From the NCBI GenBank assembly GCA_030426845.1, contig JAUHXR010000026.1, forward strand, positions 1 through 48,424: a stretch of 48,424 nucleotides of DNA. The letters are read 5' to 3'. Shown here piece after piece: positions 641-20,825 of this stretch. A program made the translations under genes and the position numbers. Each line of letters begins with the position of its first letter. Position 1 is the stretch's first letter. The DNA is from Polyangia bacterium. GTDB lineage: Bacteria > Myxococcota_A > Polyangia > Polyangiales > Sandaracinaceae. Under the pieces are notes generated by a model. The model saw nothing but the letters and a program-made list of their open reading frames with translations. It made no database searches and had not been told where the DNA came from.

Positions 641-1396
641 CTAGCCACCAAGGTAGGCGTCCGCTTCGATCTCCACGAGCATCCAGTCGGAGATGAGGCG
701 CCGTACCTCGACCATGCTGGTGGCGGGGCGTGCTTCCCCGAACATCTCGGCGTGGGCGCGCCCGATCGCGCCCCAGTCCCGCTGGATGTCCGTCACGAAG
801 ATGCGCGTGCGCACCACGTCTCGCGGGCTCGCGCCGAGGTTGCCGAGCGCGGTCTCGATGACCTCGAGGCAGCGCTTGGACTGGGCGTAGGCATCACCCA
901 CCCCGACCGGCTGCCCTGCGTCGTCGACCGACACGCTGCCGGTCACCCACACGAGCTCTCCGACTCGGACCGCGCGCGCGTAGCCGACGATCGACTCCCA
1001 CTTCGCGCCGCTCTGGGCGCGATGCCGTGGCGGGCCTGGCGCGAGATCGCCGCCGAACGCCACGCGACCCGCGGCCGAAGGCTCGAAGAGCACGTGGACG
1101 TTCTCGGCGGGGCGACGGAGCGCCGACGCTACCCCGTCGGCGAGTCGGCGCGCGACCGCGGCCCTTGCTGGGACCGGCGGCAGGTCGGCGCGCAGAACGC
1201 GCAAGAAGACGGGCCTCGCGGCGGTCGGCCCGCCGTTCTCGGCGTAGTCCTTCGCATCGAGCTCGCGGACTTGCGCCCAGCAGCGGCCCGGGGCCGCGCG
1301 GAGCGCCTCCCCCGCCGCGTCGGCCACGCGCTGCGCCGCGTCGGCGCGGACCTCCGGGTCGAGCGCCCCCACGATCGTCACGTCCACGATGGGCAT
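641..1396 (-). CDS. Tandem tautomerase-RidA fusion protein
   Basis: 251 aa. Residues 1-57 and 61-116 are two related beta-alpha-beta units of the 4-oxalocrotonate tautomerase type. The first begins Met-Pro, the N-terminal proline being the usual catalytic base of that superfamily, which is why this start is chosen over one 33 codons upstream that would read through repeat-like DNA. Residues about 131-251 form a RidA (YjgF/UK114) domain with the conserved Arg in VRTRIF (R198) and an acidic residue near the C-terminus (E242). RidA proteins hydrolyse reactive enamine/imine intermediates; tautomerases act on keto-enol substrates. The fusion suggests consecutive steps on one substrate, but that substrate is unknown. 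The gene lies 95 bp downstream of the DUF4336 gene on the same strand and may share its transcript. Confidence 0.85.
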   Translation of the reverse strand: MPIVDVTIVGALDPEVRADAAQRVADAAGEALRAAPGRCWAQVRELDAKDYAENGGPTAARPVFLRVLRADLPPVPARAAVARRLADGVASALRRPAENVHVLFEPSAAGRVAFGGDLAPGPPRHRAQSGAKWESIVGYARAVRVGELVWVTGSVSVDDAGQPVGVGDAYAQSKRCLEVIETALGNLGASPRDVVRTRIFVTDIQRDWGAIGRAHAEMFGEARPATSMVEVRRLISDWMLVEIEADAYLGG

Positions 1397-1491
1397 GGCG
1401 AAAGCGTGCGCGAACGCGGTGGCCGCGCTCAACTCTTCTCCACTCCCCTGGGTTGGTTCGCTGCGCTCACCGCGCCTGGGGCGCGGCGCGC

Positions 1492-2199
1492 TCACGCACC
1501 CCGAGGCGCCTCAAGGACGTAGCGCCACGCGTCCGCGAGGTGCTCCTGGGGGCGCTCGTCGATGACGCCGAAGTGGGCGGTGGTGATCCGAGCGATGGGT
1601 AGGCTGAGCATCGCCTCGAGCGAGCGCGCGGCCTCGACGTTGGGGGGGGTCGCGCGACGCGCGTCCCACGGGACGGTCACCCGGTCGTAGATGCGCGTCA
1701 GTCGAGCGGGGATCCGCACGGTCCAGTGGTCTTCGCGGCTCGGGCGCGCAAGCAGATCCGTCGCGATCAACGTCCGCGACGCGACGTGGAAGAACACCGT
1801 CTCATCCCAGAACGGGACGCCGTCCAGGTGAACGACGTCGAGCTCCGGCACGGCCGCGGCGAAGGTCGGCGCGCGCAGCTCCATGTCGAGCGTCAACGTG
1901 GGGTTCCTCGAGAGCGCGGACGGAGGACCTACCACCACGGCGTCCGGGTAGGCCGCCGCGAACGAAGGCGCCTCGACCTGGTGCCAGAGGTTCGGGACCA
2001 CGATCCACCGGACCGGTCCGAGGGCGTCGAGCGCGCGGCGCAGCGCGGTGTCAGGCGGAGGGGGGCTATGGACGAAGAGCGTCCCGTCCTCGAGGCGGAC
2101 GACCGTCGAGCGAACGCGTAGCCGCATCCCCGAGAAGCTGTGGAGCCGCTCCGAGTACCAGATCTGGCCGTCGACGATGGGCTGGAGAACGCTGGACAT
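1492..2199 (-). CDS. DUF4336 family protein (metallo-beta-lactamase-like)
   Basis: 235 aa. The order of motifs fits DUF4336: an opening segment with IWYSE, then MRLRVRSTVVRLEDG, LFVHSPPPP, a segment LGPVRWIVVPNLWHQ and a later WDETVFFH. The family is thought to have a metallo-beta-lactamase-like fold, with no settled reaction. The Met at 2199 starts the recognisable domain; residues encoded upstream in this frame are low-complexity and overlap the divergent LysR gene. CATAGT at 2207-2212 lies 7 nt before this start, which fits leaderless transcription. The divergent LysR regulator is the obvious candidate controller of this gene. Confidence 0.75.
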   Translation of the reverse strand: MSSVLQPIVDGQIWYSERLHSFSGMRLRVRSTVVRLEDGTLFVHSPPPPDTALRRALDALGPVRWIVVPNLWHQVEAPSFAAAYPDAVVVGPPSALSRNPTLTLDMELRAPTFAAAVPELDVVHLDGVPFWDETVFFHVASRTLIATDLLARPSREDHWTVRIPARLTRIYDRVTVPWDARRATPPNVEAARSLEAMLSLPIARITTAHFGVIDERPQEHLADAWRYVLEAPRGA

Positions 2200-2206
2200 G
2201 TCCGCG

Positions 2207-2212
2207 ACTATG
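2207..2212 (-). promoter_or_regulatory. -10-like hexamer for DUF4336 gene (leaderless type)
   Basis: CATAGT on the minus strand, 7 nt upstream of the ATG at 2199. No Shine-Dalgarno sequence precedes the ATG. Confidence 0.4.
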
Positions 2213-2229
2213 TCGCCTGCGCGGCACCG

Positions 2230-2243
2230 GTCACCCCTGTGAT
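2230..2243. promoter_or_regulatory. GTCAC-N4-GTGAT inverted repeat, copy 2
   Basis: It matches copy 1 at 599-612 in both half-sites and in the TT that follows. It sits in the 86-bp gap between the divergent DUF4336 and LysR genes, where a LysR-type regulator would be expected to bind. Confidence 0.4.
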
Positions 2244-2272
2244 TTCGCATCCGGTCGTTGCACGAACGCCGC

Positions 2273-2278
2273 CATACT
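2273..2278 (+). promoter_or_regulatory. -10-like hexamer for LysR gene (leaderless type)
   Basis: CATACT, 7 nt before the ATG at 2286, with no Shine-Dalgarno sequence between. Confidence 0.4.
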
Positions 2279-2285
2279 GCGCTCG

Positions 2286-3185
2286 ATGCAGGGGCTGCGG
2301 CGGTGGGACGATCTGGCGCTGGTACTGGCGCTCCTCCGCGCCGGGAGCCTCGCCGGCGCCGCGCGCGAGCTCGGGTGCGACGCGTCCACGATCTCCCGAC
2401 GCCTGCGAGCCCTCGAGGAGGCGCTCGGAGGTCCGGTGTTCCACCGCACGCCGGATGGCCTGGTTGCCGCACCGCTCGCCGAACGACTCCGCCCCTACGC
2501 GGAGCGTGCCGAGGCGTCGATCCTCGCCGCTCAGGCCGAGGCGGCGAGCACCGACACGAGCCCCGCGGGGACGGTCCGCGTCGCGATGTCCAGCGAGCTC
2601 GCCGCCTATGTCGTCGCGCCGAGCGTCAGCGAGCTCCAGCGCCGCCACCCCAGGCTTCGCCTGGAGATCCTGGTGAGCAACGAGCTCGCTGACCTCACAC
2701 GCCGAGAAGCGGACGTCGCCCTGCGATCCGTGCGCCCTACGCGGGGGGACCTGGTCGCGCAGCGGCTCGGGGGGATCGGCCGGCTGGCCGCAGTCGCGCG
2801 CCGCGACTACATCGAGGGGCTCGCGCCTGGGGAGCGCGTGCGGTGGCTCGCGTTCGTCCCGGAGCTGGGCCACCTCCCCGACGCCCGCCTCTTCGACCGC
2901 CTCGTCGGCCAACCCCCGGACGTGGCGAGCAACGACATGGTGGCCCTGGTCGAGTGCCTGCGAGCGGGGGCCGGCGCGATGCTGCTGCCCGCGTCCACGC
3001 TCGCCCACCCCGAGCTCGCCGAGGTACCGGGGTACGAGGCGACCGAGATCGACTCCCCCGTGTGGCTGGTGTGCCATCGCGCCTTACGCGATGTACCCCG
3101 GGTTCGCGTGGTCTGGGAATGGATGCAGGAGCTGCTCCGAGGCGCGCTCGGCGCGGAGACGCCCGCCGTCGCGGGGCCGGACTGA
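2286..3185 (+). CDS. LysR-family transcriptional regulator
   Basis: 299 aa, the usual family length. An N-terminal winged helix-turn-helix at about residues 5-60 has the recognition segment around residues 21-42 (SLAGAARELG, then STISRRLRALEEAL), typical of LysR proteins. It is followed by a linker helix and a periplasmic-binding-like effector domain from about residue 90. It is divergent from the DUF4336/tautomerase-RidA pair, a classic arrangement for a LysR regulator and its target genes. The inducer cannot be told from sequence. Confidence 0.9.
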   Translation: MQGLRRWDDLALVLALLRAGSLAGAARELGCDASTISRRLRALEEALGGPVFHRTPDGLVAAPLAERLRPYAERAEASILAAQAEAASTDTSPAGTVRVAMSSELAAYVVAPSVSELQRRHPRLRLEILVSNELADLTRREADVALRSVRPTRGDLVAQRLGGIGRLAAVARRDYIEGLAPGERVRWLAFVPELGHLPDARLFDRLVGQPPDVASNDMVALVECLRAGAGAMLLPASTLAHPELAEVPGYEATEIDSPVWLVCHRALRDVPRVRVVWEWMQELLRGALGAETPAVAGPD

Positions 3186-3259
3186 AGCGCGGAGTTGGGA
3201 GCTTGATTCACCACCGTCGCGGGGCGCCTCCCGGGCGGCAAGCGTCCGCCTCGCCGCCG

Positions 3260-3278
3260 GCCGCTCCTCGACGATGCC
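3260..3278 (-). repeat. 19-bp dispersed repeat, right (inverted) copy
   Basis: This is the exact reverse complement of the element at 562-580. It lies in the gap between the LysR gene and the radical SAM gene, where no protein can be supported. Confidence 0.6.
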
Positions 3279-3452
3279 CGAGCATCGCCTCGTCACGTCC
3301 GACTCCGATCCGAACGCATGGCGCTCCGGGATCCCCATCGCGCGGTAGCGAATCAAGCGGGCCGAGGGCACCAGGGGACCCGCGCCCTCCCGCGTCGTGA
3401 TCCGGGCCGAGCGCGGGCCTCGAGGCGCTGTCCGGCGTAAGTTCCCCCACCC

Positions 3453-10877: not shown

Positions 10878-11504
10878 CTACTTGACGAGGCGGAGGTGCG
10901 GGGCGCGGGTCCTCGGCGCGTCGTCCCCGTCGGGAGCGCTCGGGGCCGGCTCCTCGGGCTCGTCCGCATCGGCGCCCCGGTCGGCCGCCTCGCCGTCCTC
11001 GGACGCGACTCCGTCCTCGGACGCGACTCCGCCCGCGGTGGCCGCGCCGGCGCCCTTCGAGGGCTTCTCCTTCGCTTCGGCCGGCGTATCGTCGGTCTCA
11101 GCGTCGGTCTCGTCCGCCCGGCCTCCGTCGATCGAGCGGAGCGTCGGGCCGCTCCTGGTCGCGCGGCGGGCGGCGGCCGCGACCTCGGCCGCGATCTCCT
11201 CGGGCAGGTGCTCGTTCCACACGTAGCCCATCCCGTCGTCCCCCACGAGCCCGAACACCGCGTCCCACGGCACCGCGCAGGCGAACGGCGAACGGTTGAA
11301 CGAGAGCGTGCCGAACACCCCCTCGCCGTCGACGCGGAGGTCGGGGATCGGGATGGGCAGATCGAGGCCCACTTGGAGCACGAGCTGCGGCTGCTTGGCG
11401 AGCCACGGCGGCACGCGGACCGCCTCGTGCCGCGGATCGAGGTACACGAAGAGGCTGCCGCGGAGGAGCAGCGTGCGTGCGACGTCTTGCTTGGGCGGGC
11501 TCAC
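10878..11504 (-). CDS. sspB: SspB-like ClpXP adaptor
   Basis: 208 aa. Residues about 8-100 match the SspB substrate-binding fold (LFVYLDPRH, VGLDLPIPIPDLRV, VPWDAVFGLVGDDGMGYVW). An acidic, low-complexity Ala/Asp/Glu/Gly linker of about 90 residues follows, and the protein ends APHLRLVK, which closely matches the ClpX-binding C-terminal tail of SspB (LRVVK in E. coli). SspB tethers ssrA-tagged and other substrates to ClpXP. The folded domain, flexible linker and ClpX tail are all present, so I expect a working adaptor. It starts with GTG and has a weak AGG upstream. The last codons and the stop lie in a 12-bp direct repeat (about 10866-10889). Confidence 0.88.
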   Translation of the reverse strand: MSPPKQDVARTLLLRGSLFVYLDPRHEAVRVPPWLAKQPQLVLQVGLDLPIPIPDLRVDGEGVFGTLSFNRSPFACAVPWDAVFGLVGDDGMGYVWNEHLPEEIAAEVAAAARRATRSGPTLRSIDGGRADETDAETDDTPAEAKEKPSKGAGAATAGGVASEDGVASEDGEAADRGADADEPEEPAPSAPDGDDAPRTRAPHLRLVK

Positions 11505-11566
11505 CGTGCCTCAGGGCTAGACCCTCTCGGCAGAGTTCGCAACGATCTCTGCCCGAGGGCCGACCG

Positions 11567-13120
11567 TCACGTGCACATGCCGCTCGAGCAGGTGCCCGAG
11601 CAGCAGTCGTTGTTGCTGAGGCACGCGCGCCCCGAAGGCCGGCACATGCACGTGCCGCTCACGCAGTCCATGTAACCGCAGCAGTCGCCGCCCGCCGAGC
11701 AGCTCCCGCCGGCCTCGCGGCAGCAGCGCACGCCGAAGGTCACGCCGGCCCGGCACGACAGATCCATGCCCGAGCAGCAGTCGGCGTTGACCGAGCACAT
11801 CCCCATCACGTTGGAGCACGTGCAGGCGGCCGACGAGGTGTTCCAGTCCGCCGAGCAGCTCCCGGTGCTCGGGCCGATCGCGTTGCCCGTCATGCAGGTC
11901 GAGTTGCCGCCGCACCAGCCGCAGCCCGGGCGGCCGGTGCAGGTCGCGCAGCCGGTCGAGGTGTTGCACGGGTCGGACGTGGTGCAGCTCGAGCGGACCC
12001 AGTCCCAGTTCGAGCAGGTGCCGGTGCCCGGCCCGGCCGAGGTGCCGTAGCGGCAGGTCCCGGTCGACTCGCACCAGCCGCAGTTGGACACGCCGGTGCA
12101 GGCGTCGCAGTCGGCCTGGCCGGTGCACGTGGTGGAGCACTCCCCGACGGAGTTGTCCCACTCGCCGCTGCAGGTGCCGCTGGTCGGCCCGGCGAAGTTG
12201 CCGGGCATGCAGGTGTTGGTGCCGGTGCACCAGCCGCAGCCAGAGAGCGACGCGCAGCTCGCGCAGTCGGTCGCGCTCGAGCAGCCACCGACGGTGCACT
12301 CGCCCGTCCGCCACGCCCAGTCGCCGCAGCTCCCGGTGCTCGGGCCGCTCGAGGTGCCCTCCATGCACCCGCCGCCCGAGTTGCACCAGCCGCAGCCGAA
12401 CTCCGCCGTGCACTGGCCGCAGTCGGAGAAGCCGCACCGCGTGGTCACCGGCTCGCAGGTGCCCGCGTTGCAGGTCAGGCCGCTCCCGCACATGTCGCCC
12501 GCGCAGCACGGCTGGCCGTCGCCGCCGCAGGTCGGGTCGGGCGTCCGGCACGTGCCGTCCTGGCAGGTGTTGCCGCCCGAGCACTCGCTGGGCGGGTCGC
12601 AGCAGGTCTGCCCGAGCGCGCCGCACGCGCCGCACATCCCGCCGGTGCAGGTGAGGCCGCTGCGGCACATGTCACCCGCGCAGCACGGATCGCCGTCGCG
12701 GCCGCACTCGGTGTTGTCCTGCAGGCAGATGCCGTCGGCGCAGAGGAGGTCGGCGCAGCAGTCGGAGGCGCTCCGGCACGAGCCGTTCTGGGGCGCGCAG
12801 CAGGCGTTGCCCACGCAGTCGTTGCCGCCGCAGCAGTCGTCGGGCCCCGCGCAGGCCTCTCCGCCGGGGACGGCGCAGCACGCGTCGTCCTCGCAGCTCA
12901 GGCCGCGATCGCAGCGCGGGCCGGCGGTGCAGCACGAATCGCCCAGGGCGCCGCAGCCCCCTCCGGGGCCGGCGTCCGGGCGGCCGCCGCCCGCGTCGCG
13001 CTCGGGGTCGCCGGCGTCGAAGCCCGTCCGCGGCCCCGCGTCCTCGTCCATGCCGCCGTTCGCGCAGGCCGTCGCGCCGAGCGCGAGCGCCGTCACCCAA
13101 GCCAGAAGAGTCCTCTGCAT
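11567..13120 (-). CDS. Large Cys-rich lipoprotein with four PSI-like repeats
   Basis: 517 aa. A signal ends at lipobox GATAC (Cys19), then an Asp/Gly/Pro-rich linker (20-55). Residues 56-225 hold repeated CCAGDMC / CGSGLTC-type Cys knots. Four repeats at about 229-275, 280-328, 332-379 and 385-433 each contain GCGWC or NCGWC, then C, GP, TG.C and a Trp before a final Cys, which resembles the PSI (plexin-semaphorin-integrin) fold. More Cys knots end the protein. It should be surface-exposed and held by many disulfides. Its binding partner is unknown. TAGGGT lies 6 nt before the ATG. It is divergent from the REC-GGDEF gene. Confidence 0.85.
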   Translation of the reverse strand: MQRTLLAWVTALALGATACANGGMDEDAGPRTGFDAGDPERDAGGGRPDAGPGGGCGALGDSCCTAGPRCDRGLSCEDDACCAVPGGEACAGPDDCCGGNDCVGNACCAPQNGSCRSASDCCADLLCADGICLQDNTECGRDGDPCCAGDMCRSGLTCTGGMCGACGALGQTCCDPPSECSGGNTCQDGTCRTPDPTCGGDGQPCCAGDMCGSGLTCNAGTCEPVTTRCGFSDCGQCTAEFGCGWCNSGGGCMEGTSSGPSTGSCGDWAWRTGECTVGGCSSATDCASCASLSGCGWCTGTNTCMPGNFAGPTSGTCSGEWDNSVGECSTTCTGQADCDACTGVSNCGWCESTGTCRYGTSAGPGTGTCSNWDWVRSSCTTSDPCNTSTGCATCTGRPGCGWCGGNSTCMTGNAIGPSTGSCSADWNTSSAACTCSNVMGMCSVNADCCSGMDLSCRAGVTFGVRCCREAGGSCSAGGDCCGYMDCVSGTCMCRPSGRACLSNNDCCSGTCSSGMCT

Positions 13121-13126
13121 CCGCCA

Positions 13127-13132
13127 ACCCTA
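13127..13132 (-). promoter_or_regulatory. -10-like hexamer for PSI-repeat lipoprotein gene
   Basis: TAGGGT on the minus strand, 6 nt upstream of the ATG at 13120. The nearby GAGGGCCCTC (13141-13150) is a perfect 10-bp palindrome in the same divergent gap. Confidence 0.35.
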
Positions 13133-13186
13133 TCAGACCCGAGGGCCCTCAAGCATCCGGACGGCGGGCCGTTCCTCACCCCTCGG

Positions 13187-14119
13187 ATGCGTGTCCTGAT
13201 CGCGGACGACTCGGACGTCTCACGGAAGCTCCTCAGCCGGCTGCTCGAGCAGTGGGGCTACGAGCCGGTGGGCTGCGCCGACGGTGAAGAGGCCTGGCAG
13301 ATTCTCAGCGGGCCCGACGCGCCCAAGCTGGCGATCCTGGACTGGGTGATGCCGCGGATCGACGGGATCGAGGTCTGCCGCCGCCTCCGCGAGACCGAGG
13401 TCGGTCGGCAGGTCTTCGTCTACCTCCTGACCGCGCGCAGCAAGCCCGAGGACATCCTGGCGGGGCTCGAGGCGGGCGCCAACGACTACATCATCAAGCC
13501 GTTCAACCAGGCCGAGCTGCGGGTGCGGCTCCGCAACGGGCGCCAGCTCGTGGAGCTGCACGACGAGCTCATCAGCGCGCGCGAGGCGCTCCGCACCCAG
13601 GCGATGGTCGACCCGCTGACCGAGGTCTGGAACCGGCGCGCGTTCATGGATCTCGCCGCCAAGGCGCTCAGCCGCGCCGGCCGCATCGGGGCGCCCACCA
13701 GCGCGCTGATGATCGACATCGATCACTTCAAGCGCGTCAACGACGAGCACGGACACGCGGCCGGGGACGTCACGATCCGCGCGGTCGCCGACCGGGTGAA
13801 GGACGTGCTGCGGACCGGCGATCACCTCGCGCGCTACGGCGGCGAGGAGTTCGTGGTGCTCCTGCCCGACTGCCGCGCCCCGGGCGCCTACGCGGTGGCC
13901 GAGCGGGTGCGGCGCGCGGTGCAGCGGGCCCCCGTGACGTTCGACGGCGGCGCGCTCGAGGTGACCATCAGCGTCGGAGCCGCGACCGGGCCGGAGAGCC
14001 GCGAGTCGCTCGAGGAGCTGGTGAGCCGCGCGGACGGCGCGCTCTACGCGGCCAAGAACGCCGGCCGCAACCGCACCATGCTCGCGGCCCCGATCGAGCT
14101 CGCCGACACGGGCACCTGA
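13187..14119 (+). CDS. Response regulator diguanylate cyclase (REC-GGDEF)
   Basis: 310 aa. A receiver domain (1-120) has the acidic pair ADDSD, phosphoacceptor D52 in AILDWVMP, T82 and K104. A GGDEF domain (about 135-300) carries the active-site motif GGEEF (218-222), and the inhibitory I-site RTGD (209-212) lies the expected five residues upstream. It should therefore make cyclic di-GMP on phosphorylation and be feedback-inhibited by it. No partner kinase gene is next to it. The start is fixed by the REC opening MRVLIADDS. The histidine phosphatase gene follows 20 bp downstream but seems to have its own -10 element. Confidence 0.95.
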   Translation: MRVLIADDSDVSRKLLSRLLEQWGYEPVGCADGEEAWQILSGPDAPKLAILDWVMPRIDGIEVCRRLRETEVGRQVFVYLLTARSKPEDILAGLEAGANDYIIKPFNQAELRVRLRNGRQLVELHDELISAREALRTQAMVDPLTEVWNRRAFMDLAAKALSRAGRIGAPTSALMIDIDHFKRVNDEHGHAAGDVTIRAVADRVKDVLRTGDHLARYGGEEFVVLLPDCRAPGAYAVAERVRRAVQRAPVTFDGGALEVTISVGAATGPESRESLEELVSRADGALYAAKNAGRNRTMLAAPIELADTGT

Positions 14120-14139: not shown

Positions 14140-15138
14140 GTGCGGCTGACCCTCGTCCGGCACGCGGAGTCCACCTGGAACGCCACCGGCCAGTGGCAGG
14201 GGCAGTCCGACGTGCCCCTCAGCCCGCGCGGCCACCTCCAGGCGCGCGCGGTCGCGGCGCGGCTCTTCGATCGCGCGTGGGCGCGGCGCCTGTGCTCCGA
14301 CCTGTCGCGGGCCGCCACGACCTCGGACGCGATCGGCGAGGGCGCGGAGCGCGACCGGCGGCTGCGCGAGATCGACGTGGGGGCGTGGGCCGGCCTGACG
14401 CGCCGCGAGGCGGCGGAGCGGTTCCCCGACGAGGTGCGCGGGCTGATGGCGGGCGAGTCGGTGCGGATCGGCGGCGGCGAGTCGATCGAAGAGCTGGAGG
14501 CGCGCGTCGACGGCGTGCTCGAGGAGCTGAGGGAGCGTCATCCGGGCGAGGCGGTGCTCGCGGTGACCCACGGCGGGGTGATCCGCGCCGCCGTCGGGGG
14601 GGTCATCGGGTTCCGCGGCCGGACCAGCCCGCTCGTCGGGGTCGGCAACACGGCCCTCACTGTCCTGGTCGAGCGGGGCGACGGGGAGCTCGCGATCGAG
14701 GCCTACAACGACGGCCTGCACCTCGACCCCGCGGACCGCGACACCGGCGTCCCCGCGAGCCGAGGGGTCGTCAGCCGGCTCGCGCTCGTCGCGATCGACC
14801 CGGCCGCGCCGAGCGAGCGGCGCACGGCCGACGCGATCCTCGCCCACCTCGGCATCGCGCAGATCTACTCGGTCGGGCTCGCGCGGGTGGGCGAGCTGGC
14901 CCAGCAGCTCCTCGCCGATCCGCTCGACACCCTCGTCCTCGAGGACCTGCGCGCCGAGCACGGCGAGGCCGACTTCGCGCTCGTGCTCACCCCGGAGCGG
15001 GTCGCCGAGCTGACCGCCCGGCTGCTCGGGGTGGAGCGCGCGGGGGCGTTCGCGCCGCCGCCCCCGGCCTCGGTCGCGCAGCTCCGCCTCGGCGAAGAGC
15101 GCGCGGAGCTGTTCAGCTACGGCGTGCGTCCGGCGTAG
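14140..15138 (+). CDS. Histidine phosphatase family protein with extra C-terminal domain
   Basis: 332 aa from GTG. Residues 1-200 are a phosphoglycerate-mutase-like histidine phosphatase: LVRHAES with nucleophile H8, R57 in LSRAATTSD, E77 in REIDVGAW and the second His H144 in AVTHGGVIRA. The catalytic set is complete, so it should dephosphorylate a small molecule or protein. Residues about 210-332 form an additional alpha/beta segment (RGVVSRLALVAIDPA, ADAILAHLGIAQIYS, DTLVLEDL) that could be a degenerate second domain of the same fold without catalytic His. The GTG start gives the correct N-terminal strand directly. Confidence 0.87.
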   Translation: MRLTLVRHAESTWNATGQWQGQSDVPLSPRGHLQARAVAARLFDRAWARRLCSDLSRAATTSDAIGEGAERDRRLREIDVGAWAGLTRREAAERFPDEVRGLMAGESVRIGGGESIEELEARVDGVLEELRERHPGEAVLAVTHGGVIRAAVGGVIGFRGRTSPLVGVGNTALTVLVERGDGELAIEAYNDGLHLDPADRDTGVPASRGVVSRLALVAIDPAAPSERRTADAILAHLGIAQIYSVGLARVGELAQQLLADPLDTLVLEDLRAEHGEADFALVLTPERVAELTARLLGVERAGAFAPPPPASVAQLRLGEERAELFSYGVRPA

Positions 15139-16759: not shown

Positions 16760-17815
16760 GTGGCGTCGTTGACCCTCAGAGGCCTGCGCAAGCGGCTCGG
16801 CGAGAACGAGATCCTGCGCGGGATCGACCTCGACGTGGAGGACGGCGCCTTCGTCGTGCTCGTCGGTCCGAGCGGCTGCGGCAAGTCGACGCTCCTGCGC
16901 ACGATCGCGGGGCTCGAGACGCCGGACGCGGGCGAGGTGCGGATCGGGGACGTCGACGTGACCGAGCGGCCGCCGCGCGAGCGCGACGTCGCGATGGTGT
17001 TCCAGAGCTACGCGCTCTACCCCCACCTCAGCGTCGGGGAGAACCTCGCGTTCGGCCTGAAGCTTCGCAAGGAGCCGGCGAGCGTGATCGAGGCGCGGGT
17101 GGCGGAGGTCGCGGGGATGCTCGGCCTCGACGATCTCCTCGAGCGCTACCCGCGCCAGCTCAGCGGCGGGCAGCGGCAGCGGGTCGCGATGGGGCGCGCG
17201 ATCGCGCGCCGGCCGCGCCTCTTCCTGTTCGACGAGCCGCTCTCGAACCTCGACGCGGCGCTGCGTACCGAGGTGCGGGTCGAGATCAAGCGGCTCCACG
17301 CGCGGCTCGCGTCGACGATGGTCTACGTGACCCACGATCAGGTCGAGGCGATGACCCTCGCCGATCAGCTCGTCGTGCTCAACCGCGGCGAGGTCGAGCA
17401 GGCCGGGCCGCCCCTCGAGGTCTACCACCGGCCCGCGTCGCGCTTCGTCGCGGCGTTCATGGGCAGCCCGGCGATGAACTTCCTCGAGGTCGCCATCGAG
17501 GGCGGCGAGGTGGTGGCCGACGGCGTCCGGCTCGACGCGCCAGCGCTCGACGACGCGCCGGCGCGCGCGCTCCTCGGGGTGCGGCCCCACGACGTGGTGG
17601 AGGCCGAGGACGGCGGCCTCGAGATGACGGTCGACGTGGTCGAGGCGATGGGGTTCGAGGCCTACGCCCACGGGCGCGTCGGCGAGGCGCGCTTCGTGGC
17701 GCGCGTGCCCGGCGAGCGCGCGGCGGGGCTCGCGCGGGGCGACGTGCTCCGGCTGGCGGTGGACCGCGAGTCGCTCCACCTGTTCGACCTCGAGACGGAG
17801 CGCGCGATCCGTTGA
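16760..17815 (+). CDS. MalK/UgpC-type sugar ABC transporter ATPase
   Basis: 351 aa. Walker [10 protein letters not shown] (36-44), Q-loop [10 protein letters not shown], signature LSGGQRQR (134-141), Walker B LFLFDEP and H-loop THDQ (H192) are all intact, and a C-terminal OB-type regulatory domain carries GVRPHDV. This is the CUT1 carbohydrate-importer ATPase class. I choose the GTG at 16760 because it yields the standard opening [11 protein letters not shown]; a GTG at 16727 would add 11 residues rich in Cys. CATGCT at 16746-16751 lies 8 nt before it. The stop overlaps the next start (TTGA), so the three transporter genes form a tightly coupled operon. Confidence 0.93.
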
Positions 17816-19986
17816 GGCGCGGGGTCACGATCGGGCTCGCGCTGCTCGCGCTGCTCGTACCCGGGCTCGCCTCCAGTCTTGCATGTGCGCAAGACGAGCT
17901 GCGGGTGTGGCACGCGTATCGCGGCCGCGAGGAGGCGGCGCTGGTGGAGGCGGCGCGCGCGTTCGAGGCGAGCGCCCCCGGCGTCCACGTGGTGCTCGTC
18001 GCCCAGCCGTTCGGCGCCTATGCGAGCAAGCTCGGCTCGGCGATCCCGACCGGCAACGGGCCCGATCTCTTCATCGACACCCACGACCGGGTCGCCGCCT
18101 ACCAGCGCGCGGGGCTCGTCGCGAGCGTGGCCTCGGGCCCCCTCGAGGCGCGCATCGCGCCGGAGCACTGGGGGGCGTTCCGCGTGGCGGGGGAGGTCTA
18201 CGGGGTCCCGCTCTCGCTCAAGGGGGCCGCGCTCTACGTCAACCTGGACCGCGTCGCCGCGCCGCCCGAGACGCTCGAGGACATCGAGGCGCTCCGCCTG
18301 CCCGACGGGGTGTTCCCGCTCGCGATGGAGGCGGAGAGCGCGTACTGGACCGCGCCGCTCTTCGCCGCCTACGGCCGGGGCCTCCTCGACGACGAGGGCG
18401 GCTGGGGGCTCACCGGCGAGCCGGCGGAGCGCGCGCTCACCCACCTCGCGCGCCTCGTGGAGCGCGGCGTGGTGCCCGAGGAGAGCACCGGCGCGCTGGT
18501 CGGGCAGCTCTTCTCGGACGGGCGCGCGGCGACCGCGATCAGCGGGCCGTGGCTCGCGGCCGAGCTGCCCGAGGCGCTCCGCTGGCAGGTCGTGCCGCTC
18601 CCCCGCGTCGAGGGCGCGGGCGGCGCGCCGATGCGCCCCTACGTCACGGTGGAGGGCGCCTACGTCTCGGCGGAGGCCCGGGCCCCCGAGGCGGCGCTCC
18701 GCTTCGCGCGCTACCTCGCGACCGGCCCGGGGGCGCTCCTGCGCGCGCGCCGCGGGCGGCAGGTGGTGACCGACCGCGAGGCGTGGTCGTCGCTCGGCTC
18801 GGACGGCTTCCTCGCGCGGTTCCGCGAGGCGGCGGAGGGCGGCGTGATCACGCCGACCCACGAGAACATGAGCGTGGTCTACGTCCCGGCGGACCGCGCG
18901 ATCCGCAAGGTGATGCGCGGCACCGCGAGCCCCGCCGAGGCGCTGGCCGAGGGCGCCCACCGCTTCGAGGACCTCACGCGGCCGCTCCCCGACCCGGTGG
19001 ATCCGAGCTGGGGCGTCGCCGCGCTCGGGGCGCTCTCGCTGCTCCTCGTCGTCTGGATGACCGCGCGCCTGCGCGATCCGGAGATGCGCGTCGCGATCCG
19101 CCGCTCGATGCCCGCCTACCGCTACGTCGCGCACGCGGCCCTCGCGGTAGGGCTCCTCGTCATCCTGCCCCTCGCGGTCGGCGGCGCGACGAGCTTCTTC
19201 GCGGGCCGCGGCACCGACATGCACTTCGTCGGACTGGCGAACTACGTGGACATCCTCACCGCGCGCGGCGGTGACCTGCTCGGCCACGGGTCGTTCTGGC
19301 TGACGCTCCTCGTGACCGTCCTCTGGACCGTCCTGAACGTCGCGCTGCACGTGGTGATCGGGGTCTCGCTGGCGCTCGTGCTGCATCGCCCGTACCTCCG
19401 CCTCAAGGGCGTCTACCGCGTGCTGCTCATCCTGCCGTGGGCGGTCCCCAACTACGTCACCGCGCTCGCGTGGAAGGGGATGTTCCACCGCCAGTTCGGC
19501 GCGGTGAACGCGATCCTCGGCGGCTTCGGGATCGAGCCGGTGAGCTGGTTCTCCCACTGGGCCACCGCGTTCGGCGCCAACGTCGCGACCAACGTCTGGC
19601 TCGGATTCCCCTTCATGATGGTGGTGACGCTCGGCGCGCTCACCGCGATCCCGAAGGACCTCTACGAGGCCGCGGCGGTCGACGGCGCGACCGCGTGGCA
19701 GCGCTTCTGGAAGATCACCGCCCCGCTCCTCGCCCCGTCGCTCGCCCCCGCGGTGGCGATGGGCTCGGTGTGGACGTTCAACATGTTCAACGTGGTGTTC
19801 CTCGTGAGCGGCGGCGAGCCGGACGGGGGCACCGAGATCCTCGTCTCCGAGGCCTACCGCTGGGCCTTCACGCGCGGCAACCAGTACGGCTACGGCGCGG
19901 CCTACGCGGTCCTCATCTTCGTGATCCTCGCGATCACGACGCGGCTCACCGCGCGCCTCACCGGTCCGTCGGAGGCGCGTCGATGA
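17812..19986 (+). CDS. Fused sugar-binding protein and MalF-type permease
   Basis: 724 aa. A TTG start overlaps the ATPase stop and gives a clean signal sequence ending near LACAQDE. Residues about 27-390 are an extracellular solute-binding domain of the sugar class (ELRVWHAYRGREEAALVEAA, GNGPDLFIDTHD, GPWLAAELPEALRWQVVPLP). A membrane span (about 399-420), a short basic loop and then a MalF-type permease domain follow, with ILPWAVPNYV and the EAA loop EAAAVDGAT from residue 619 that docks on the ATPase. There is no stop or frameshift between the two parts, so binding protein and permease are one polypeptide. The substrate is probably a sugar or oligosaccharide, by family. Confidence 0.9.
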   Translation: MRRGVTIGLALLALLVPGLASSLACAQDELRVWHAYRGREEAALVEAARAFEASAPGVHVVLVAQPFGAYASKLGSAIPTGNGPDLFIDTHDRVAAYQRAGLVASVASGPLEARIAPEHWGAFRVAGEVYGVPLSLKGAALYVNLDRVAAPPETLEDIEALRLPDGVFPLAMEAESAYWTAPLFAAYGRGLLDDEGGWGLTGEPAERALTHLARLVERGVVPEESTGALVGQLFSDGRAATAISGPWLAAELPEALRWQVVPLPRVEGAGGAPMRPYVTVEGAYVSAEARAPEAALRFARYLATGPGALLRARRGRQVVTDREAWSSLGSDGFLARFREAAEGGVITPTHENMSVVYVPADRAIRKVMRGTASPAEALAEGAHRFEDLTRPLPDPVDPSWGVAALGALSLLLVVWMTARLRDPEMRVAIRRSMPAYRYVAHAALAVGLLVILPLAVGGATSFFAGRGTDMHFVGLANYVDILTARGGDLLGHGSFWLTLLVTVLWTVLNVALHVVIGVSLALVLHRPYLRLKGVYRVLLILPWAVPNYVTALAWKGMFHRQFGAVNAILGGFGIEPVSWFSHWATAFGANVATNVWLGFPFMMVVTLGALTAIPKDLYEAAAVDGATAWQRFWKITAPLLAPSLAPAVAMGSVWTFNMFNVVFLVSGGEPDGGTEILVSEAYRWAFTRGNQYGYGAAYAVLIFVILAITTRLTARLTGPSEARR

Positions 19987-20825
19987 GGCGGGGTGGGGCC
20001 GAGGCGCTCGCGCACGTCGCGCTCGTCGCGGCGGTGGCGTTCGCGCTCTACCCGGTGCTCTGGGTGGTGAGCCTCGCGCTCTCGCCGACCGACGCGCCGA
20101 GCCCGAGCGCGCTGCCGCTCCCGACCGATCCGTCGACCGTCCACTTCGCCGAGGTGCTCGGCACGCGCGACGCGGACGGCGCCTGGCTCTTCGGCCGCCA
20201 GCTCTTCAACTCGGTGATGATCGCGACGGCCACCTCGCTCGTGGCGATCGCGATCGCGACCCCGGCCGCCTACGCGCTCGCGCGCTTCCGCTTCGTCGGC
20301 GCCGAGGCGGGGACCAAGGCGCTCCTCGCGACCCAGATGTTCCCCGGCGTCGCGGCCGCGATCCCGCTCTACATCCTGCTCGACGCGCTGCACCTGCTCG
20401 ACAGCGCGACCGGGCTCGTGCTCGTGTACGCGACGACCGCCGTACCGTTCGCGATCTTCCAGCTCCGCGGCGCGTTCGAGGGCATCCCGCGCGAGCTCGA
20501 GGAGGCGGCGATGGTCGACGGCGCCACCCGGTTCGGGGCGTTCGTCCGCGTGGTGCTCCCCGCCGCGCGGCCGGCCCTCGCGATCACGGGGCTCTTCGCC
20601 TTCATGACCGCGTGGAACGAGTTCATCCTCGCCGCGACGTTCCTGAGCAGCGAGGAGAGCTACACCCTGCCGGTGGTGCTCCAGCGCTACGTGGGCGAGT
20701 ACGACGCCCAGTGGGGCGCGTTCGCGGCCGGCGCGATCCTCGTCTCGGTGCCCGTGATGGCCCTGTTCTACGCGCTCCAGCGAAACCTCGTCGGCGGGCT
20801 CACTGCGGGTGGGGTGAAGGGCTGA
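19983..20825 (+). CDS. MalG-type sugar ABC transporter permease
   Basis: 280 aa with about six membrane spans. The EAA loop reads EEAAMVDGATRFGAF (EAA from residue 174), and TAWNEFILA and LPVVLQRYVGEY are typical of MalG. It starts at an ATG overlapping the stop of the fusion gene (ATGA). With the ATPase and the binding-protein/MalF fusion this completes a CUT1 importer without a separate binding protein. Confidence 0.95.
   Translation: MRRGGAEALAHVALVAAVAFALYPVLWVVSLALSPTDAPSPSALPLPTDPSTVHFAEVLGTRDADGAWLFGRQLFNSVMIATATSLVAIAIATPAAYALARFRFVGAEAGTKALLATQMFPGVAAAIPLYILLDALHLLDSATGLVLVYATTAVPFAIFQLRGAFEGIPRELEEAAMVDGATRFGAFVRVVLPAARPALAITGLFAFMTAWNEFILAATFLSSEESYTLPVVLQRYVGEYDAQWGAFAAGAILVSVPVMALFYALQRNLVGGLTAGGVKG

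Follow-up and report, generated by a model that had tools for sequence, protein, structure and literature searches.

A MalE–MalF fusion in a likely maltodextrin-type importer of Polyangia, and its unfused relatives in Myxococcota

Can one open frame in a Polyangia genome encode both the sugar receptor and a pore subunit of an ABC importer, and if so, is such a protein peculiar to this genome? The question arises from a 48,424-nucleotide stretch of contig JAUHXR010000026.1 (family Sandaracinaceae), hereafter the window. An initial annotation had read 17812-19986 as one continuous frame from a TTG start, encoding a signal peptide, a solute-binding domain, a linking membrane span and a MalF core, and our analysis bears out this reading. 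The same annotation considered receptor fusions unusual in maltose-type systems. That judgment finds no support: the fusion is common across Myxococcota, and a natural MalE–MalF fusion has reportedly been characterised already.

One frame for receptor and permease core

On the forward strand, 17812-19986 is a single open frame of 724 codons, running from a TTG start to a TGA stop, and its assignment as a malEF fusion gene draws on fused homologues and on Pfam and NCBIfam matches. The TTG is the sole ATG, GTG or TTG in frame between window position 17662 and the signal peptide. Its four-base overlap with the stop of malK reads TTGA, and that between the fusion's stop codon and the malG ATG reads ATGA; the receptor–permease chain sits, as originally described, in a malK-malEF-malG operon with overlapping neighbours. 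A mechanical list of open reading frames also holds a frame of 1319 codons, which was interpreted as GC-rich read-through from upstream, not as the gene.

Both halves of the protein are recognised independently. Pfam matches SBP_bac_8 at residues 47-305 (E 8.7e-25) and BPD_transp_1 at residues 514-714 (E 5.3e-18), each above its curated cut-off, and the solute-binding and permease families are both matched in 20/20 aligned homologues. The two top NCBIfam names on the fusion are MalF (residues 473-713; 183.7 bits against an equivalog cut-off of 392) and MalE (residues 8-385; 126.4 bits against 291). These scores fall below the equivalog cut-offs, as does that of MalG (179.8 bits against 261), so that strict membership of the maltose family is not established.

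The chain opens with a predicted signal peptide (residues 1-26; 17812-17889, +), read from the translation and likely cut between ACA and Q. Type I signal peptides are cleaved at an AxA-type site. Such sites stand at the matching place in many homologues of the alignment, and the signal peptide of the fusion is likely of type I. Retention of an uncleaved signal peptide as MalF span 1 was considered and set aside, since the AxA-type sites of the homologues argue for cleavage, although they do not prove it. Next comes a MalE-type solute-binding domain (residues 28-389; 17893-18978, +), identified by Pfam, NCBIfam, an AlphaFold model in which it lies mostly above pLDDT 90, and Foldseek, whose top match is the maltotriose-binding MalE of T. 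maritima (2gha; TM 0.88 by target length). A proline-rich linker of about 9-10 residues (390-398; 18979-19005, +) fills the gap between model helices 374-389 and 399-420, the second of which is the putative linking membrane span (19006-19071, +). The arginine-rich stretch behind this span, with 4 K/R in residues 421-436, should face the cytoplasm.

The MalF-type permease core (residues 430-715; 19099-19956, +) is defined by BPD_transp_1 and by alignment to E. coli MalF, whose residues 278-500 (2r6g_F) align with residues 496-708 of the fusion. Its EAA coupling loop (residues 619-638; 19666-19725, +), read from the translation, is indeed intact, as had been claimed, and occupies nearly invariant columns in 20 homologues. 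The membrane half of the model has pLDDT <50 over long stretches. Across 119 compact-fusion rows, repeated loci included, the distance from binding domain to permease core is 38-44 residues; the length of the tether is thus nearly constant.

The partners of the fusion complete the set expected for an importer of this kind. The MalK-type ATPase gene (16760-17815, +) matches ABC_tran, OB_MalK and TOBE_2 in Pfam, in keeping with a MalK-type ATPase that has a C-terminal regulatory domain, and UgpC/MalK in NCBIfam, where it passes the UgpC model (461.7 bits; cut-off 432) and does not pass the MalK cut-off. Its frame opens at GTG 16727, but GTG 16760 is the likelier start. The MalG-type permease gene (19983-20825, +), whose ATG overlaps the fusion stop, has MalG as its top NCBIfam name (E 8.6e-53, below the equivalog cut-off). 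Two distinct permease subunits, the fusion and MalG, therefore stand side by side, each with BPD_transp_1 and an EAA loop. Together with a MalK-type ATPase and a MalE-type (SBP_bac_1/8) receptor, such paired permeases are the features that define the CUT1 or MalFGK2 type, and all of them are found here.

In the whole 9.4 Mb genome (about 95% complete), the single SBP_bac_8 match is the fusion itself, so there is no rival free receptor of that family as far as the genome shows. A scan of three neighbouring frames found no sugar genes adjoining the operon. Farther upstream in the window lies a histidine phosphatase gene (14140-15138, +) next to a frame at 11477-14119 (+), the 3′ part of which looks by eye like a response regulator carrying a GGDEF-type output domain.

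Fused and unfused relatives across Myxococcota

The initial annotation called for a search for the same fusion in related genomes, and named a stop or frameshift between the binding and permease parts as the result that would refute it. A full-length fusion without stops, at 48-70% identity, occurs in 54/96 genomes of the same family or order, counting the genome's own and including one assembled as a single contig. This recurrence excludes, indirectly, a break between the two parts, and the fusion is therefore not a sequencing accident. Among the other genomes of the family, 8/9 carry the full-length fusion and the ninth gives a partial match. In a wider Myxococcota sample 205/282 genomes match, about 106/282 of them across both domains; this last figure, like 54/96, is a hand count of listed rows that span both domains. 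A public scan returned 537 relatives, the best 80 of which by score are all fused, a selection by score that is therefore not a frequency. These 80 include Nannocystis, Polyangium, Plesiocystis and Myxococcus along with a handful of records labelled as other phyla, and loci L101-L120 and part of L021-L100 repeat genomes from the 96-genome set. One record, Comamonas sp. KCTC 72670 (L100), carries a fusion that clusters in the tree, strongly supported, with that of Myxococcus xanthus, and is probably mislabelled.

A second receptor–permease fusion, about 29% identical, was seen at two loci (L137:2525-4795, −; L138:164-2650, +). Its permease scores best as UgpA, ahead of MalF, so that it looks like a separate fusion; the genome of L137, a single contig, also carries the main one.

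Other Myxococcota encode the permease core without the receptor. From the listed rows of two genome searches, 17 + 19 possible unfused or variant regions were picked, not at random. Wherever an unfused locus holds both frames, malE lies upstream of malF on the same strand (26/26), and in 25/26 the two are separated by <50 bases or overlap. The unfused MalF consists of a first span, an ectodomain of mostly 108-179 residues, further spans and the core; on a simple hydrophobicity scale the region before the core has four spans in 19/29 proteins, three in 7/29 and five in 3/29. The ectodomain between spans 1 and 2, seen at unfused loci including L126, L132, L136, L161 and L163, is unnamed in Pfam, which gave no named domain above cut-off for it in 9/9 proteins.

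A model of this ectodomain was built for one protein (L136) from a 29-row alignment, with a mean pLDDT of 78.5 and good confidence in the ectodomain. Foldseek found no match for it at E<=0.001 (best 0.0095). A second structure comparison of the L136 ectodomain returned WalK, CitA, TlpQ and DcuS at Z 10.6-12.9, with CitA and WalK domains at Z 11-13 and a top Z of 12.9, values to be read with caution, since Z scores in this middle range turn up often and a single domain within a long model may be poorly probed by such a comparison. We read the ectodomain of the unfused MalF as folding like a Cache or extracytoplasmic PAS sensor, at the level of the fold and from one model. It is possibly a sensor domain built into the pore protein of a sugar importer. 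A literature search covering a small share of the matching papers found no report of Cache domains in MalF.

How the two architectures are related was examined in a tree of 81 permease cores, which used 47 of 91 distinct compact-fusion rows and omitted five loci cut by contig ends (L130, L131, L152, L160, L171) and two with very long branches (L137, L138). A single branch splits 51 fused from 29 unfused rows (ultrafast bootstrap 81, SH-aLRT 98), which amounts to one state change. An earlier tree had shown four because the contig-cut L130 and L131 were scored as unfused; dropping them reduced the number to one. E. coli MalF forms a very long branch that falls on the fused side, so the root is unsure and the tree leaves fusion versus fission undecided. 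Within the fused group, four long-form fusions (L122, L123, L124, L170) make up a single clade. They are open frames of 811-880 codons, that of L122 lying at 757-3381 (+), with about three spans linking receptor to core where other fusions have one. A profile comparison between the three pre-core spans of L122-L124 and spans 2-4 of the unfused MalF gave a homology probability of 12.9%, while the layouts agree.

Topology offers a common thread. Four spans, a signal peptide plus three spans, and a signal peptide plus one span all keep the receptor outside and leave the orientation of the core equal. The simplest account would be that malE, already adjoining malF, took the place of the sensor-like ectodomain together with span 1, most lines losing two more spans besides. 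Given the unsafe root and the low homology probability of the extra spans, we infer both the direction and the steps of this exchange. We would go further only tentatively, to an idea we think rather unlikely to hold in full: that the periplasmic slot of Myxococcota MalF between spans 1 and 2 is an exchangeable input module, which accepts either a Cache-type sensor with a separate MalE or MalE itself, by way of one ancestral, topology-keeping exchange. If so, the site that the tethered receptor inherited would be one where the binding of an extracytoplasmic ligand had been linked to the pore beforehand, and the unfused branch would comprise sugar importers whose gating depends on a sensor of their own.

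Substrate, mechanism and competing readings

The ligand site was compared with the maltose-contact positions of E. coli MalE, which we take to be W62, D65, R66, E111, E153, Y155, W230 and W340, the letters having been checked against the E. coli MalE sequence. The window protein keeps D65, R66, Y155 and W230, and changes W62 to D, E111 to K, E153 to S and W340 to Y. The lysine at position 111 is present in all 31 rows compared, except for E. coli MalE and two distant fusions. With these contacts altered, the ligand may be something other than maltose itself; a maltodextrin-type sugar is likely, though this is not certain. The genomic context fits such a ligand to some extent. Within the window's genome, a LamB porin gene adjoins a GH13 amylase gene on a different contig (C405:32723-35326), and among the best 80 of the 537 public loci, many of them short, 20 have a GH13 cluster and 12 a LamB cluster.

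Taken together, these observations make it highly probable that the operon encodes an ABC importer of type I, of the MalFGK2 (CUT1) kind, with a tethered receptor, likely for maltodextrin-type sugars. Gene content suggests a complex in which two MalK subunits join a single MalEF and a single MalG. The signal peptide would export the MalEF chain, and the MalE-type domain would then fold in the periplasm and bind an oligosaccharide, most likely of the maltodextrin type. The loaded receptor would dock on its own MalF/MalG pair and stimulate MalK, and the sugar would be released into the pore, while the receptor never diffuses away.

Three other readings bear on this proposal at different points. 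The one that concerns the substrate deserves serious attention, even though we hold it to be somewhat improbable: the operon may encode just such a tethered-receptor importer, but for another sugar or oligosaccharide, such as trehalose or a plant- or prey-derived glycan. It would account for the replaced maltose contacts, with the E111 change so widespread in the compared rows, and for a MalK frame that satisfies the UgpC model instead of the MalK model. Set against this, the closest solved folds are those of maltotriose- and maltotetraose-binding MalE proteins, and some relatives have LamB and GH13 genes close to the fusion.

The reality and the role of the fusion can be questioned as well. 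An assembly artefact or frameshift that joined two genes is conceivable in a draft genome of 538 contigs from a phylum where unfused malE and malF occur as neighbours, but the stop-free frames of the 54 genomes, one of them a single contig, and of the best 80 of 537 public loci leave this explanation with practically no weight. It is also very unlikely, if less extremely so, that the fused receptor serves as a sensor, or regulates the pore allosterically, instead of delivering substrate, having replaced the Cache-type domain of the unfused MalF. The domain does occupy the equal topological slot and its sugar contacts are altered; however, a search of the genome found no other SBP_bac_8 receptor that could deliver the substrate, and MalE fused to MalF is described as transport-competent in the accessible part of a review (PMC7756565). 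A tethered receptor that delivers sugar to its own pore thus remains our preferred reading of the operon.

Relation to known importers

It is instructive to set the proposed MalEF-MalG-MalK2 importer beside its best-known counterpart. Like MalFGK2-MalE of E. coli, it combines MalK, MalG, a MalF core with its EAA loop and a MalE-type receptor, but in E. coli the receptor has its own gene, malE, whereas here it is tethered. E. coli MalF has a large periplasmic P2 domain, and this insertion is without counterpart in the fusion.

A closer precedent exists. Licht et al. 2019 (Res Microbiol 170:1-12) reportedly characterised a natural MalE–MalF fusion transporter, said to be from Bdellovibrio bacteriovorus. 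Judged by its title, which is cited in the accessible parts of PMC9045158 and PMC7756565, it follows the same overall plan as the importer described here, with a single receptor domain on MalF together with MalG and MalK. The structure 6ffl_A, named 'Maltose/maltodextrin transport permease homologue', is by that name probably the binding domain of the protein of Licht et al. Against the binding domains of L079 and of L069, the locus of the M. xanthus homologue, it scores 115 and 108 bits, below the 154 and 146 bits of T. maritima MalE, so the fusion of Licht et al. may be divergent or separate.

Covalent attachment of the receptor to the permease is also found in OpuA and GlnPQ, importers of betaine and amino acids that belong to other permease families. 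In OpuA the tether consists of 11 residues and an anchor span, according to the accessible part of PMC11065425. As far as the available portions of the sources go, OpuA has two receptors per complex and GlnPQ tandem receptors, whereas a single receptor per complex would be expected here. Nearer home, the unfused MalE and MalF of Myxococcota share the permease-core family and the gene order malE-malF with the fusion, and differ in a separate malE gene and in a MalF that carries a span and, on one model, a Cache-like ectodomain. The accessible part of a survey of M. xanthus transporters (PMC3924187) makes no mention of a MalE–MalF fusion.

Since the fusion is common in the phylum, has a precedent in Licht et al. 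2019 and belongs to a class reported as transport-competent, the gene adds a member to a known design. What is new is its context, namely two natural architectures within one family and an unfused MalF with a domain resembling a sensor. The family offers a maltose-type importer in fused and unfused form, a single branch apart, and with it a way to learn how a tether affects affinity, rate and receptor stoichiometry. Moreover, should the unfused MalF indeed carry a Cache-type domain, these relatives would be sugar importers with a sensor in the pore protein, whose regulation is directly testable.
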